DNA of 64,000 nucleotides from Allomuricauda sp. M10. GTDB lineage: Bacteria; Bacteroidota; Bacteroidia; Flavobacteriales; Flavobacteriaceae. The notes under the pieces are model-generated. The model saw only the letters and a list, made by a program, of their open reading frames with translations. It did no database searches and was not told the DNA's origin. The first letter of the stretch is position 1. Each line of letters starts with the position of its first letter. Positions 2,962-42,426 of this stretch are shown here, piece after piece. Location of the stretch: assembly GCF_020782875.1 (NCBI RefSeq), contig NZ_JAJGBN010000002.1, positions 682,001 to 746,000 on the forward strand, written 5' to 3'. The translations under genes and the position numbers were made by a program.

Positions 2962-3801
2962 ATGAATCTGTTTTTAAAGACGAAAGACTTTTCTGTTTCA
3001 GGAGAAACCTTTGAACTGTTCAAAGATGAAAATCTGGACATGCTGGTGACGCGACCACAACCGGAAAATCTCTCCACGTATTACGAAAGTGAGGACTATA
3101 TTTCGCACACAGATTCAAAAAAGTCGTTTCTAGACAAGTTATACCAATATGTAAAGCGTATCAACCTTAAAAGTAAGGTTCAACTTATTGAAAATCAATT
3201 AAATATATCAAAATCTCTTCTCGATATAGGTGCCGGAACAGGAGATTTTCTCCTTTTTGCCCAAACCAAGGGATTTCATGTTGTTGGTGTAGAACCTAAC
3301 CAAAGCGCAAGACAACTTTCTTCTGAAAAAGGCATTTCTCTTTTGGAACAATTAGGAGCCGTTGCCGACCAAAAGTTTGATGCGATTACCCTTTGGCATG
3401 TTTTGGAGCACCTTCCCAATTTGGATGAGCAGATTACAAACATGGTTTCCTTGTTGAATGATGATGGAGTTTTGGTGATTGCCGTTCCTAATTTTAAATC
3501 GTACGATGCCAAACATTATGGATCTCATTGGGCAGCATTTGATGTGCCTAGGCATCTTTGGCATTTTTCAAAAACCTCCATTGCCAACCTTTTTGATCCT
3601 CATGGATTGGAAGTGATCGCCATCAAGCCGATGTGGTTCGATTCTTTTTATGTTTCCCTACTTTCAGAAAAATACAAAGGGAACAAAATCTATTGGTTGA
3701 GTGCTTTCTTTATCGGATTGGCGTCAAACCTTAGCGCTGTCTTCACTAAGGAGCATTCATCGCTCATTTATATCCTCAAAAGGAAAAATCAGCCCGTTTA
3801 A
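2962..3801 (+). CDS. class I SAM-dependent methyltransferase
   Basis: 279 residues. The glycine-rich SAM-binding motif I is DIGAGTGDF at residues 88-96, followed by an acidic motif II position (GVEPN), and the family's WHVLEHLPNLDEQ segment lies mid-protein. This is the Methyltransf_23 (UbiG-like) arrangement. The N-terminal part (TRPQPENLSTYYESEDY) is typical of flavobacterial copies found next to mnmG. The substrate cannot be told from the sequence. It is preceded by 126 bp containing the second parS-like palindrome. Confidence 0.85.
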   Translation: MNLFLKTKDFSVSGETFELFKDENLDMLVTRPQPENLSTYYESEDYISHTDSKKSFLDKLYQYVKRINLKSKVQLIENQLNISKSLLDIGAGTGDFLLFAQTKGFHVVGVEPNQSARQLSSEKGISLLEQLGAVADQKFDAITLWHVLEHLPNLDEQITNMVSLLNDDGVLVIAVPNFKSYDAKHYGSHWAAFDVPRHLWHFSKTSIANLFDPHGLEVIAIKPMWFDSFYVSLLSEKYKGNKIYWLSAFFIGLASNLSAVFTKEHSSLIYILKRKNQPV

Positions 3802-38398: not shown

Positions 38399-39431
38399 CA
38401 GCCCCCATTTGTTGGTCATCCGCTTGTCGGCCATGGGCGATGTAGCGATGACGGTTCCGGTAATCGGCACGTTGTTAGAAAAATACCCAGATCTTCACGT
38501 AACGATATTGACCAAACGACCCTTCCTGCCCATTTTTGAAGGTTTGGAACGCGTAAATGTTTTGGAAGCCGACGTGAAAAAGCGACACAAAGGCTTGATG
38601 GGCCTATGGCGACTGTATCAAGAATTGAAACCTTTTCATTTTGCCGCCGTTGCTGATTTGCATAACGTATTGCGAAGCCGGATTTTGAAAAAATATTTTG
38701 CTACAAGCGGTGTTCCCTTTGTACAACTCGATAAAGGTAGAAAGGAAAAGAAAGCATTGACCCGAGCCAAAAACAAGGATTTTAGACCATTGAAGACTAC
38801 GGTGCAACGCTATACCGATGTTTTTGGCCAATTGGGATTCCCAATAGACATGTCCGATGCCAAACCTTTGGCACGTTTATCGCTTTCCGAAAAAATACTG
38901 GATTTGGTGCATCAGGATACCAAAAAATGGGTAGGTATTGCGCCTTTTGCAGCGCATTCTGGCAAGATGTACCCCTTGTTTTTGATGGAAAAAGTCATCA
39001 AAACGCTATCTGATACCGATAAGTATAAAATTTTATTGTTCGGGGGCGGGGAACAGGAAGTACAGCAGTTGGAAAGGCTTTCGGCCGAGTATACCAACAC
39101 CCAATGTATGGCCGGAAAATTGACTTTATCCGAAGAACTGCAACTGATTTCCAATTTGGATGTAATGCTTTCCATGGACAGTGGCAATGCCCACTTGGCG
39201 GCCAATTATAGCATTCCGGTGGTTACGCTATGGGGTGTTACGCATCCGTACGCCGGGTTTTACCCTTTTCATCAACCTATGGAAAATGCTTTGCTGGCGG
39301 ATCGGGAACAGTTTCCTTTGATCCCTACATCGGTATATGGGAACAAAGTACCCAAAGGCTACGAAAATGTCATGGAAACCATTGATCCCCAACAGGTGGT
39401 GGGCCATCTTTTGAAAATTTTGGAGGCTTAG
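38382..39431 (+). CDS. glycosyltransferase family 9 (heptosyltransferase-like) protein
   Basis: 349 residues. HLLVIRLSAMGDVAMTVPVIGTLLEKYP gives the ADP-heptose transferase N-terminal pattern. The C-terminal half has VGIAPFAAHSGKMYP, LLFGGGEQEVQQLE and the donor-site segment SMDSGNAHLAANYSIPVVTLWG. It likely adds a heptose or related sugar to the LPS core. It overlaps DUF4254 and converges with the TetR gene, sharing 4 bp at the ends. Confidence 0.88.
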   Translation: MDKKGNSPHLLVIRLSAMGDVAMTVPVIGTLLEKYPDLHVTILTKRPFLPIFEGLERVNVLEADVKKRHKGLMGLWRLYQELKPFHFAAVADLHNVLRSRILKKYFATSGVPFVQLDKGRKEKKALTRAKNKDFRPLKTTVQRYTDVFGQLGFPIDMSDAKPLARLSLSEKILDLVHQDTKKWVGIAPFAAHSGKMYPLFLMEKVIKTLSDTDKYKILLFGGGEQEVQQLERLSAEYTNTQCMAGKLTLSEELQLISNLDVMLSMDSGNAHLAANYSIPVVTLWGVTHPYAGFYPFHQPMENALLADREQFPLIPTSVYGNKVPKGYENVMETIDPQQVVGHLLKILEA

Positions 39432-40045
39432 GCCATCACGGGCTGTGGCTCCAAGGACTTAAAGTAGTGCTTCAACTGTTGCACGTATTGGTATTTCAAC
39501 TGGCGGTTGCTACTGTCCATCATCAATGAACGCATCCCCAAATAGGAAGCAATAATGTAAGTGGCTACGCCCTCACAATCCACGTGGCGGGCAATGTACC
39601 CGTCCAACTTGCCTTTTTTAAGCACGGAAACCAGGTTGACCTCCCAAACGTTCAGGATGTCCTTTAAATACCCACTGATTTCCTCGTTGCGCTTGTTGAA
39701 CTCCGTTAAAAAGTCGTTCAGCATAAAGCCGTAGGCCATTTCATTCTTCTTACCGGGTTCCAAGGCGTTCTCCAGACTCTCCACAATGATCGGCAACGGG
39801 TTTTCCTCGGTGTTCAACGGTTCGATCAATAGGGCATATACCTTTTGTACGATAAGGTTCTGCACAATACTGATAAAGTAATCTTCCTTCGATTTAAAAT
39901 GATGGTAAAAGGCACCCTTAGAAAGCGACAGTTGTTTTAGAATATCGTCAAGGCTGGTATTGTAGTAGCCTTTTTCGTTGAAGATTTCAAGGCCCTTGCC
40001 ACACAAACGGTGCATGGTCTCCCTGCTTTTAAGAGTGGTTTCCAT
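39428..40045 (-). CDS. TetR/AcrR family transcriptional regulator
   Basis: 205 residues. The N-terminal helix-turn-helix spans about 10-56, with GLEIFNEKGYYNTSLDDILKQL and LSKGAFYHHFKSKEDYF, as in TetR repressors. The C-terminal ligand-binding part is helical and not assignable to a known ligand class (a TetR_C-type domain with EGVATYIIASYLGMRSLMMDS). The promoter 33 bp upstream carries copies of an AACCGACC motif, suggesting autoregulation. Targets elsewhere are not known. Confidence 0.9.
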   Translation of the reverse strand: METTLKSRETMHRLCGKGLEIFNEKGYYNTSLDDILKQLSLSKGAFYHHFKSKEDYFISIVQNLIVQKVYALLIEPLNTEENPLPIIVESLENALEPGKKNEMAYGFMLNDFLTEFNKRNEEISGYLKDILNVWEVNLVSVLKKGKLDGYIARHVDCEGVATYIIASYLGMRSLMMDSSNRQLKYQYVQQLKHYFKSLEPQPVMA

Positions 40046-40077
40046 AAGATTTGGGTTTTAGACCGTTGAGTCTGTGA

Positions 40078-40108
40078 CAAAGATTTGGCGGAAACCGACC
40101 AACCCAAA
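40078..40108 (-). promoter_or_regulatory. promoter of the tetR gene with operator-like motif in its spacer
   Basis: On the minus strand TTTG (40108-40105), then exactly 19 bases, then AATCTTTG (40085-40078), one mismatch from the Bacteroidota TTTG-N19-TAnnTTTG promoter. AACCGACC (top strand 40093-40100) lies in the spacer, where a bound repressor would block polymerase. The expected transcription start is about 25 bp before the ATG. Confidence 0.6.
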
Positions 40109-40152
40109 CAATTCAAGATGTAGTTGCCTTAAAAATCGGTGAAAGGATAAAA

Positions 40153-40204
40153 AACCGACCAAATACCGAAAATCGAAAAATCTGAACCGACTTACTGGTC
40201 GGTT
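40153..40204. promoter_or_regulatory. AACCGACC repeats, putative TetR operators
   Basis: AACCGACC occurs at 40153-40160. An inverted pair AACCGAC (40185-40191) and GGTCGGTT (40197-40204) follows, with five bases between. Together with the copy in the tetR promoter these give four copies of the half-site in about 110 bp. No other gene starts here except across the adjoining cassette. Confidence 0.5.
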
Positions 40205-40264
40205 AAATGGCCATGCAGGTTCGTTGAATGGCATTCAAAATGTGGAAACATTTAAAGTAAAAAA

Positions 40265-40329
40265 GCCCTAACTTCACTTATCGGCCGATATAATTCATTA
40301 AAAACGAATCATATCTTAGAACGTTAGGC
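40265..40329. repeat. attC-like hairpin, upstream end of the cassette
   Basis: The element begins GCCCTAAC (40265-40272) and ends GTTAGGC (40323-40329), an exact GTTRRRY core. Inner arms GATATAATTC (40287-40296) and GAATCATATC (40306-40315) pair with one mismatch around a 9-base loop, and the outer ends pair as well with a bulge. This is the folded structure expected of an integron attC recombination site. Identification is by pattern only; no integrase gene is in the window. Confidence 0.5.
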
Positions 40330-40370
40330 ACTATTAACGCAAAGAACGAGATTCAACCAATAAATGATAA

Positions 40371-40799
40371 ATGGATAAAGAAAAATTAGATAAAATAATC
40401 AAGGATTATAAAGTCCAACCTGTAGGAAACGGTTACATCGACTTAATTGTTTCTAGAGATTTATTTAAGCAATTTGTTCATGAGTTAATTGAAAATGGAT
40501 TTGTAATAAAAAGTGTTTCATGGTGGGAATGGTGTGCAAATAAAGATGAATGCAAATATGGACTTGGCGGTCCAGAAAGTAAATTTTATAGAGGTTGGTT
40601 TGCTGAATTGCCAATTGATGTAGATGATATTGAATTGTCCGATTTAACTACCGAAAAAGCAATTGAAAATGTTATAGACCTGATTGATTCAAAGAGTATT
40701 CAATATCCAGACGAGATTATAAGCTTTCATGAATCAAATTGGTTAACACCTGCTATTTGGCTGGACGTACCTGATAACTGGATAAATAAATTCAATTAA
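40371..40799 (+). CDS. cassette-borne protein of unknown function
   Basis: 142 residues, soluble, with an unusual Trp-rich segment (SVSWWEWCANKDECKYGLGG) and an acidic second half. No family was recognised. The coding sequence is clearly richer in A/T than the genes around it, with many AAA, GAT and TTA codons, consistent with transfer. It is the first of two genes inside an insert bounded by attC-like hairpins. The 47 bases before the ATG contain no obvious promoter match. Confidence 0.7.
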   Translation: MDKEKLDKIIKDYKVQPVGNGYIDLIVSRDLFKQFVHELIENGFVIKSVSWWEWCANKDECKYGLGGPESKFYRGWFAELPIDVDDIELSDLTTEKAIENVIDLIDSKSIQYPDEIISFHESNWLTPAIWLDVPDNWINKFN

Positions 40800-40809
40800 T
40801 AATCAGCTG

Positions 40810-41070
40810 ATGGAATTAAAAAAAGACAGAATTGAAATTGCTAGTGATGTAAATGGCCGAGATGGTATCGGAGTTGAGATTTACAGAGATAACAAACTTA
40901 AAATTGAGATTTTTCGAGATGACACAAAGCAAAGTAGAACTATTAGTGTTTTTGACAATGGAAAATCAATTGATATTTCTTTTGAATTAATGGAAGAGGC
41001 GATTAGAGTTTTTAAGAAAGAGATTCCTTGGGATTTCATTGATTACGAGAAAAACAATGATTCTGAATAA
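40810..41070 (+). CDS. second cassette-borne small protein
   Basis: 86 residues, rich in charged residues, probably beta-strand plus helix (RIEIASDVNGRDGIGVEIYRD, then SFELMEEAIRVFKKE). It begins 10 bp after the first cassette gene, so the two are probably co-transcribed. No family recognised. Base composition matches the first gene. A partner or immunity role is possible but there is no direct evidence. Confidence 0.65.
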   Translation: MELKKDRIEIASDVNGRDGIGVEIYRDNKLKIEIFRDDTKQSRTISVFDNGKSIDISFELMEEAIRVFKKEIPWDFIDYEKNNDSE

Positions 41071-41079
41071 AATAACAGT

Positions 41080-41214
41080 GCCTAACACGCGGTCATAAAA
41101 CATTGCGCAGATAGGGCTATATTTGAACGAAATAACATTTAATCAACGGTTTAACGGGCTGATAAGTTTGTGCTTCGAAATGCGCAACGTTTCATACCGC
41201 CACCGATAAGTGCA
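41080..41214. repeat. attC-like hairpin, downstream end of the cassette
   Basis: The element begins with GCCTAAC (41080-41086), an exact RYYYAAC core. The left arm runs through CGCGGTCATAAAACATTGCGCA to 41109 in pieces that pair with TGCGCAACGTTTCATACCGC (41181-41200) on the right, with a few bulges. The right end GATAAGT (41205-41211) fits GTTRRRY with one mismatch. The total length, 135 bases, is within the range of known attC sites. It ends 24 bp from the stop of the arsS-like gene. Confidence 0.5.
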
Positions 41215-41237
41215 ATTCCCCAATTTCTTCCCAAAAC

Positions 41238-42326
41238 CTAAGCCACCGTCCCTTGACAACTACTGCCCGCTCCGGCGGTACAGCCATAACAGTGTTGGGA
41301 AATCACTATGTTTCGGTCGTTCAACACCTCTTCGTTATAATCCTTAATGTGTTTTACCTTACTGGCGACCTTTAGGTCCAGCATTTGGTTAAAGTCACAA
41401 TCGTACAGCCATCCGTCCCAACTTACTGAAATGGTGTTGGTGCACATCACATTGGCCACGGCAGATGGGTTAAAGGCCTCCACCAGGGAATACATATAGT
41501 CTTCATAATTGTCCGAGGCCAACAGATAATCCAAAAACCGGGAAATAGGCAGGTTGGTAATGGCAAAAAGGTTATGAAAGTCAATATCAAAATCCTCTTT
41601 CAGGGCTTTTTTAAAATCGTGCTCCAAAGCCGTCTGGTCCCCGGGCAAAAAGGCCCCGGAGGGGTTGTATACTAGATCCAACCGCAAGTTACTGTCGGGC
41701 ATGCCATAGCCCACCTTGTTGAGGGCCTGCAACGCTTGGATGGATTTGTCAAAAACACCATCGCCCCGTTGTTTGTCCGTTTTGTTTCGGGTGTAGTGCG
41801 GCATGGAGGACACCACATGCACATTGTGCTTTTTAAAGAAATCGGGCAGGTCGTGGTATTTTTTGTTCGCCAAAATAATGGTGAGGTTGGAGCGAACGAT
41901 AAAATCCTGGATGCCCGCTTTGGAAGCTTCTTCCACAAACCACCTGAAATCGGGGTTCATTTCGGGCGCTCCGCCGGTAAGGTCCAAAGTATGTGCCCCA
42001 GTGTTTCGGATGACCTCCAAACACTGCTCCATGGTCTCCCGGTTCATAATCTCCTTGCGGTCAGGACCTGCATCCACATGGCAATGCTCACACACCTGGT
42101 TGCACATGTACCCCACATTGATCTGAAGGATCTCCAGTTTCTTGGGTTTTAGCGGAAACTGTCCCGTTTGGGCGATCTTGTCCTTAAAATAGGGGAGTTC
42201 CCCATCGGCAAAGAGGCCCCCGTTCAGGATATCCATCTGCCTGTGGGTATCGGCCAGTTCGTTGTGCCTTGCCTTCAAGGATTTTTTAGCGGCGTTTTTG
42301 ATGTCGGTCAATATGCTTTGTTCCAT
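41238..42326 (-). CDS. arsS: arsenosugar biosynthesis-type radical SAM protein (ArsS)
   Basis: 362 residues. The radical SAM cluster motif is CNQVCEHC (CxxxCxxC form, followed by HVDAGP), then LTGGAPEMNP, the GGxPE-type SAM-binding segment. The C-terminal half (DUF3641-like) has a row of cysteines, including MCTNTISVSWDGWLYDCDFNQML and QHCYGCTAGAGSSCQG. ArsS-type proteins are linked to arsenosugar formation in cyanobacteria; the role in Flavobacteria is by homology only. The partner at 42427 lies upstream on the same strand, 100 bp away. Confidence 0.88.
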   Translation of the reverse strand: MEQSILTDIKNAAKKSLKARHNELADTHRQMDILNGGLFADGELPYFKDKIAQTGQFPLKPKKLEILQINVGYMCNQVCEHCHVDAGPDRKEIMNRETMEQCLEVIRNTGAHTLDLTGGAPEMNPDFRWFVEEASKAGIQDFIVRSNLTIILANKKYHDLPDFFKKHNVHVVSSMPHYTRNKTDKQRGDGVFDKSIQALQALNKVGYGMPDSNLRLDLVYNPSGAFLPGDQTALEHDFKKALKEDFDIDFHNLFAITNLPISRFLDYLLASDNYEDYMYSLVEAFNPSAVANVMCTNTISVSWDGWLYDCDFNQMLDLKVASKVKHIKDYNEEVLNDRNIVISQHCYGCTAGAGSSCQGTVA

Positions 42327-42426
42327 TTTAATCTTAAATCACAATTGATTTATTACTTCCATGTATTACTTCCTTTGAAATCCAACCGCAAAGCGGTCCA
42401 ATGTCCAAAAACGAAGTGAGTCCAAA

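Follow-up and report, generated by a model that had tools for sequence, protein, structure and literature searches.

An exchangeable two-gene cassette in Allomuricauda sp. M10 points to an integron-like system of Flavobacteriaceae with integrases that lack the I2 region

The described systems closest to the locus reported here are the integrons (IntI, attI and attC; class 1 and chromosomal) and the Xer/XerA recombinases, alongside which IMEX are to be named. Double-strand exchange by tyrosine recombinases needs an overlap of 6–8 bp. Secondary integron sites such as attG take up a cassette at a G^NT position away from attI. The I2 helix has been seen as the step from a double-strand recombinase to an integron integrase, with a remark on the lack of intermediates (a passage in PMC7790495); the I2 domain is called defining and necessary for integron recombination in a passage of PMC9668308, and one survey, according to a passage in PMC2426708, picked its integrases by this domain. 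Because integrases have been selected or defined in this way, a system without I2 could be overlooked. For the Bacteroidetes, a section of the IntegronFinder 2.0 paper (PMC9024848) gives only In0 elements at an earlier stage and then a complete integron in Salinibacter, and the same source sets the threshold for CALIN at a cluster of at least two attC sites without an integrase. Among the open PMC papers listed in our searches, we found none that points to integrons lacking I2 or of Flavobacteriaceae cassettes like those presented below.

Here we analyse an insert between a tetR and an arsS gene of Allomuricauda sp. M10. We believe, with good confidence, that it belongs, as a gene cassette, to an integron-like system of Flavobacteriaceae, whose I2-less Xer/IntI-like recombinase would be supplied in trans or have been lost.

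The window cassette and its resident pad

The window (the whole stretch of DNA analysed, 64,000 nucleotides of contig NZ_JAJGBN010000002.1, positions 682,001 to 746,000) carries a two-gene cassette of 882 bp, T40324 to G41205 on the + strand. A preliminary description of this DNA had placed two small, A/T-rich genes of no recognised family on one strand between tetR and arsS, with GTTAGGC (40323–40329) before and GCCTAAC (41080–41086) after them, and each of these points is borne out (Table 1). The complementarity extends further than was described: the two cores pair over 10 nt, followed by an A.C at position 11 and then by three more pairs.

Table 1. Features of the cassette, its pad and the flanking genes (positions in the window)
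Feature	Position	Strand	Basis or remark
tetR-type regulator, flanking, outside the cassette	39428..40045	-	PF00440
Left half of the resident pad, AACTTCACTTATC...GAATCATATCTTAGAACG (ends GAACG)	40270..40323	+	Crossover after G40323
Cassette 5′ core GTTAGGCACT, R′-like arm	40323..40332	+	Complement of 41077–41086
Mobile cassette	40324..41205	+	Junctions G^TTAGGC and CCG^ATAAGTG, of the same form as in the six other cassettes at this site
Cassette gene 1, 142 aa, no family	40371..40799	+	ORF list, family scans
Cassette gene 2, 86 aa, no family	40810..41070	+	ORF list, family scans
Cassette 3′ core AGTGCCTAAC, R″-like arm	41077..41086	+	Complement of 40323–40332
attC-like hairpin of the cassette	41080..41205	+	R2 match 41079–41205, 30.4 bits (not independent: the hairpin is one of the 18 R2 seeds and also an R1 seed)
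Right half of the pad, GATAAGTGCAATT	41205..41217	+	Partner of CACTTATC at 40275–40282
arsS-type radical SAM gene, flanking, outside the cassette	41238..42326	-	PF12345

The G+C content is 31% and 30% in the two cassette genes, against 41% in the window, 45% in tetR and 49% in arsS. Neither gene reaches a family cut-off in profile scans. No copy of gene 1 was found in any of 38 relatives, and no match among plasmids or in the genome_contigs set; gene 2 has one match, on a Pseudomonas plasmid (36% identity over about 66 residues). An assignment of gene 2 to MotCF was rejected, the Pfam match being weak (E 0.005) and below the cut-off.

The insert had also been described as bounded by a hairpin at either end. 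Both hairpins lie where they were placed, but the upstream one is half of a resident pad and not the cassette's own. Sequence resembling this left pad half precedes six different cassettes in sister genomes, and a like right half is found after other cassettes and in the empty pads L327, L328, and L337. Joined to each other, the two halves form a single hairpin in a stretch of 74 bases (bottom strand −11.5, top strand −8.2 kcal/mol). The bottom strand is likewise the more stable in the cassette's own hairpin (−17.7 against −14.0 kcal/mol) and in the cassette closed into a circle, where it folds as one hairpin (−26.3 against −22.9 kcal/mol). Compared with shuffled sequences, neither the upstream hairpin (z −2.0 bottom, −0.3 top) nor the downstream one (z −0.8 bottom, +0.6 top) has a folding energy beyond chance, and the case rests on comparative evidence. 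Rfam gave no match in 39400–42400.

Exchange of cassettes at hairpin pads

The tetR gene is present in 40 of the 60 same-genus genomes (M10 included), and we compared the stretch beyond it in the 39 relatives. Six of them carry six other cassettes between like pad halves near tetR: 677 bp in G011 (L048), 1117 bp in G062 (L049), 884 bp in G053 (L050), 1290 bp in G060 (L055), 4578 bp in G020 (L061), and 1828 bp in G040 (L062). Counting M10, seven genomes thus hold seven different cassettes at one pad. The arrangement is the same in all six relatives, with the left pad half, a cassette starting with GTT and its own core, the complementary core with the cassette's own hairpin, and the right pad half. 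Insertion is exact to the base, G^ATAAGTG becoming G^TTnnn...G^ATAAGTG. In G060 the left half is split by an insert and its end is intact. The right half precedes arsS in M10, G011, G062, and G053, a sequence like the 3′ end of arsS in G060, and another gene in G020 and G040.

Six proteins from five of these six cassettes (those of L048, L049, L050, L061, and L062) were scanned, with the results no family, PD40, DnaA_N with TIR, a C-5 methylase and a Bpu10I-type endonuclease, and an aldo/keto reductase. In the long cassette of G020 (contig C2), two methylase-like genes, one of them the scanned C-5 methylase, are grouped with an endonuclease gene of Bpu10I type, another gene resembling the latter, and a small gene that is HTH-like.

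Among the remaining 33 relatives, G070 has both pad halves, G023 has the left half farther from tetR, and L076, L077, and L078 show only the short right-half pattern. Since neither half is found in the stretch beyond tetR in 28 of the 39 relatives, and 5 have pad pieces elsewhere in that stretch, the tetR-adjacent region varies for other reasons too.

Pads are not confined to this site. A pad pattern allowing up to two mismatches occurs in 38 of the 60 genomes, and the reversed control pattern in none. With a stricter pattern, 20 distinct pads were recognised in 26 scanned loci (four non-matching loci are left uncounted, and the right half was sometimes out of reach); judged by eye, 15 are filled, with a G^TT left junction, 4 are empty, and 1 is unclear. 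The preliminary description had proposed a search for an empty site in sister strains; two other pads, both filled in M10, are each empty in one sister. At a second site, the pad is empty in G011 (L327, ACG^ATAAGTG), is filled with 982 bp in G062 (L324), and holds in M10 (contig C20) a cassette of 696 bp with an ORF of 189 aa. At a third, the pad is empty in G053 (L328), is filled with 1613 bp in G062 (L325) and 544 bp in G072 (L329), and holds in M10 (contig C18, L342) a cassette of 814 bp with an ORF of 218 aa, the left pad half being again interrupted. Both of these M10 cassettes have complementary ends of ten bases. Relative to the empty site, right flanks are 88.5–93.8% identical over about 600 bases starting at the pad half, and left flanks about 89–91% where aligned (flanks overall about 88–94%); no target duplication was seen between empty and filled pads.

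With the pads on C18 and C20 filled beside that of the window, M10 carries no fewer than three single cassettes, which lie on C12 (the contig of the window), C18, and C20. The terms “lone” and “CALIN” of the preliminary description are thus inexact, since each cassette sits alone in its own pad, on different contigs, and no cluster is formed. A search of the M10 genome with the hairpin model R2 (see below; 150 of 728 candidates were scored) matched the pad of the window alone and none of the three cassette sites, so more cassettes may exist; the model R1 picked up C18 weakly (E 0.046), and also C12:848536 (E 0.24).

Some further features of pads were seen along the way. In G044:C11 they recur along about 35 kb (L117 5472, 7779, 12060, and 12978; L116 6402; L118 769), several of them behind a near-identical leader (TTGCTATTG-CAAAAAAATCCCCGAA), as though the unit copied had comprised leader, pad, and cassette. 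Locus L328 (G053:C155) has pads at 3636 and 8210, 4.6 kb apart, one empty and one filled. The left pad halves of L055 and of C18 in M10 share a similar short insert (TCCTGTnnGCCGACAGGCAGGTA...) with the G^TT junction intact, possibly a small repeat element jumping into pads.

Hairpin family, cassette arrays and integrases

The two hairpin models were built from eight sites (R1) and from 18 sites (R2). At E 0.5, 36 of 40 same-genus genomes have R1 matches, many of them weak. The exact arm pattern occurs in at least 117 stretches of genome_contigs, and all matches listed are from Bacteroidota, mostly Flavobacteriaceae. Across the class, at E 0.001 and with strict filters, R2 has a match in 11 of 159 genomes; it finds 177 sites in 97 loci (92 of the pattern loci listed and five same-genus ones), site counts that are lower bounds because R2 missed the cassettes of M10 itself.

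Covariation supports the hairpins. The seed alignment (MAFFT, 18 rows, A3), whose structure was drawn from the same 18 rows, has changes on both sides in 12 of 17 pairs and a covariation score of 0.380 against 0.110 when shuffled, none of 500 shuffles reaching any measure. In the larger alignment A6 (the 150 rows of best fit), the score is 0.285 against 0.077, reached by 0 of 500 shuffles; its rows are fitted to the model, and 1 and 3 of the 500 shuffles reached two of the five measures. Two positions stand out, with a top-strand A.C at pair 18 in 142 and at pair 23 in 147 of the 150 sites. At arm position 11, 29 of the 36 matched array cassettes have a top-strand A.C, as do 6 of 6 pad cassettes (counted without L049, which has two extra bases in its core), and a top-strand G.T occurs in none. 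Read on the bottom strand, these conserved A.C mismatches are G.T wobbles, and 138 of the 150 sites fold more stably on the bottom strand (2 ties), compared with 68 of 150 random pieces. Among the marks of an attC site, an imperfect hairpin, a structure kept over sequence, and a favoured bottom strand are thus present.

In other Flavobacteriaceae, cassettes form arrays near a tyrosine recombinase gene. Taking as array cassettes the 57 stretches between consecutive sites 250–2500 bp apart, we found ends that match over at least seven bases in 36 of them, against 5.5% of 3192 swapped pairs, and no match over seven bases (0 of 27) between a 3′ core and the start of the next cassette. As a cassette's own ends match and the next starts do not, the outer arms pair fully only in the excised circle. 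The other 21 cassettes between detected sites have poorly matching ends, and some of them may be two cassettes with a missed site between. At the cassette start, base 11 is A in 57 of 57, facing C at the opposite end in most of the matched cassettes, and base 12 is always T or G.

R2 sites are found in 20 of 31 integrase loci, the nearest lying 467–6320 bp from the gene (same strand in 11, opposite in 9), and 10 of the 20 same-genus integrase stretches have no R2 site at E 0.001; nearness of gene and site is less telling in the 11 loci from other genera, which were picked by the hairpin pattern. Of 20 integrase genes, 13 have an attI-like TATAA-n-GTT just beyond the gene on the cassette side, a motif that 233 of 4000 random windows also contain and that was drawn from the same genes on which it was counted. 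This junction beside the gene may well be the attI of the system. The platform of an integron, with arrays beside an integrase gene and an attI-like junction, is accordingly found elsewhere and not in the genome of the window.

As for the recombinase, 11 of the 117 pattern loci listed have an ORF that scores higher with IntI1 than with the five tyrosine recombinases of M10 (phmmer), and two further pattern loci have other or weak recombinase matches. Within the genus, 30 of 60 genomes have a non-Xer-type match at E 1e-86 or better, several of them containing stops, in a long form (start at profile position ≤8) and a short form (start ≥92). Nine of ten aligned integrases are 357–405 aa long and one is shortened at its start; their SAM-like and catalytic domains are preceded by a region of some 95 residues. 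This N-terminal region has no Pfam match in the five scanned and is absent from the short integrases of the genus; in the integrases of L178, L195, and L231, it carries the motif KWS-x-T...WY-x-P. Of the seven genomes with a cassette at the window site, G011, G053, G020, and G040 have an integrase, and none was found in M10, G062, and G060. M10 has five PF00589 matches, only Xer-type and element-type, all on contigs other than that of the window, in agreement with the earlier statement that the window has no integrase gene.

We measured 30 of the integrases (20 same-genus and 10 from other genera, 26 distinct): two catalytic motifs lie 58 residues apart in every one of them, compared with 100 in all 11 canonical IntI (ten of the same phylum) and 66 in the XerD-like L001 of M10, the Xer value coming from L001 alone, with none for L002. 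All 30 lack the 42 residues of the I2 region that are present in canonical IntI, a gap visible for ten in the alignment A4. Five scanned integrases reach 194.6 to 222.1 bits with TIGR02249, all under its cut-off of 265 (IntI1 reaches 507.5). In a tree with rows including one class 1 IntI, ten IntI of the phylum, and two Xer, the new integrases stand apart from the I2-bearing IntI. The recombinase of such a system may never have acquired I2 or may have lost it, and the tree, with its few IntI and Xer rows and long branches, is silent on this.

Mechanism, alternatives and relation to known systems

What can be read from sequence is the base-exact insertion and exchange at pads, the arrays near an integrase gene, the covarying and bottom-biased hairpins, and the absent I2; the cassette would be integron-like in its working, but of a new variant without I2. 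In the mechanism that we propose, the excised cassette would fold on its bottom strand into a hairpin whose arms are gripped by the integrase, an I2-less Xer/IntI-like enzyme that would cut after the G of G^TT at the hairpin foot. The cut cassette would then be joined at the corresponding G in attI, in a further cassette, or in a pad (G^AT), ending in the last case between the pad halves, by a single-strand exchange followed by replication, as in integrons. The integrase, none of its kind having been found in M10, would have been lost since or would act in trans from a visiting element.

A more general proposal, to which we give an even chance, is that Flavobacteriaceae integrons without I2 recombine folded single-stranded ends, with the strand chosen by the G.T wobbles, and also load chromosomal pads; they would then be a surviving pre-I2 stage of integron evolution or have an independent origin. 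A natural set of about 26 distinct I2-less integrases with many of their sites is at hand, and exchangeable genes of Flavobacteriaceae, restriction-modification and TIR genes among them, may travel by a route that could be missed by finders of IntI and classic-attC integrons.

The best of the alternatives, though in our view an unlikely one, is that the inserts move double-stranded by ordinary Xer-like recombination at short cores, the hairpins serving some other purpose, such as that of a terminator or an antisense RNA. Beyond the G at the cut, however, pad and cassette have little in common, too little for an overlap of 6–8 bp, and a one-strand exchange followed by replication fits better than a full double-strand exchange; the A.C/G.T bias also points to a one-strand structure. 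The recombinases themselves speak for the Xer-like route. They lack I2, which a passage in PMC7790495 ties to single-strand recombination, and their best scores are with the XerA profile NF040815 (“site-specific tyrosine recombinase/integron integrase”), whose cut-off is passed by 2 of the 5 scanned. The best structural match of the L178 integrase model (pLDDT 77, pTM 0.47) is likewise XerA (5hxy: Z 23.7, 252 aligned, rmsd 14.4), with IntI4 (2a3v) at Z 20.5, 258 aligned, and rmsd 3.3.

Capture of a canonical integron cassette by a canonical IntI at a secondary site is improbable. Canonical IntI is over the cut-off in 105 of 395 genomes of the phylum, and GTTAGGC and GCCTAAC of the window do fit GTTRRRY and RYYYAAC, but of the genomes with IntI matches a single one belongs to the class of the window and none to its family. 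TIGR02249 at E 1e-40 has no match in the 60 same-genus genomes, a weak null in that control genomes were silent too; this profile matches IntI-like proteins in two pieces, and the phylum search served as the positive control. A model of ten class 1 attC sites (R3) matched the cassette strand of five plasmid loci 20 times, including the unseeded orfF, dfrA12, and VIM-1 sites, and at E 1 matched nothing in the window or in 18 flavobacterial loci. Only 1 of the 57 array cassettes starts with GTTRRRY. The preliminary view of the hairpins as attC sites of the known kind is not supported by these results, nor by recombinases without the defining IntI insert; its wider claim, that a Bacteroidota genome carries an integron-type cassette with no integrase linked to it, is supported by the exact swaps, the empty sites, and the arrays elsewhere. 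Least probable of all is homologous recombination between relatives that swaps whole regions bearing an ancient cassette pattern: the tetR–arsS region is generally variable, but at three separate loci the junctions are placed to the single base, empty sites exist, and flank similarity resumes right at the pad half.

The I2-less integron-like system proposed here stands close to the integrons themselves. Common to both are cassettes of one or few genes with a 3′ hairpin site and complementary ends, the G^TT crossover, arrays that lie close to an integrase gene and an attI-like junction, and a favoured bottom strand. Unlike integrons, the integrases lack the I2 insert, the R box is GTT followed by free bases, the strand bias comes from G.T wobbles, and dispersed hairpin pads take single cassettes; furthermore, the class 1 model misses the sites described here, and R2 finds no site in the one class 1 integron tried. 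CALIN are alike in that the genome has cassettes but no integrase of the system was found in it; they are attC clusters, however, and the cassettes here stand singly, on separate contigs, in resident pads of a recurrent type. As at attG-type secondary sites, a cassette lies outside attI at a G^NT position, but the target here is itself a conserved hairpin that is repeated in the genus. Finally, Xer/XerA probably share the fold of the integrases and come nearer to them in motif spacing (58 here, 66 in L001, 100 in IntI), and what sets the present system apart from Xer/XerA and IMEX is its cargo, gene cassettes with hairpins.
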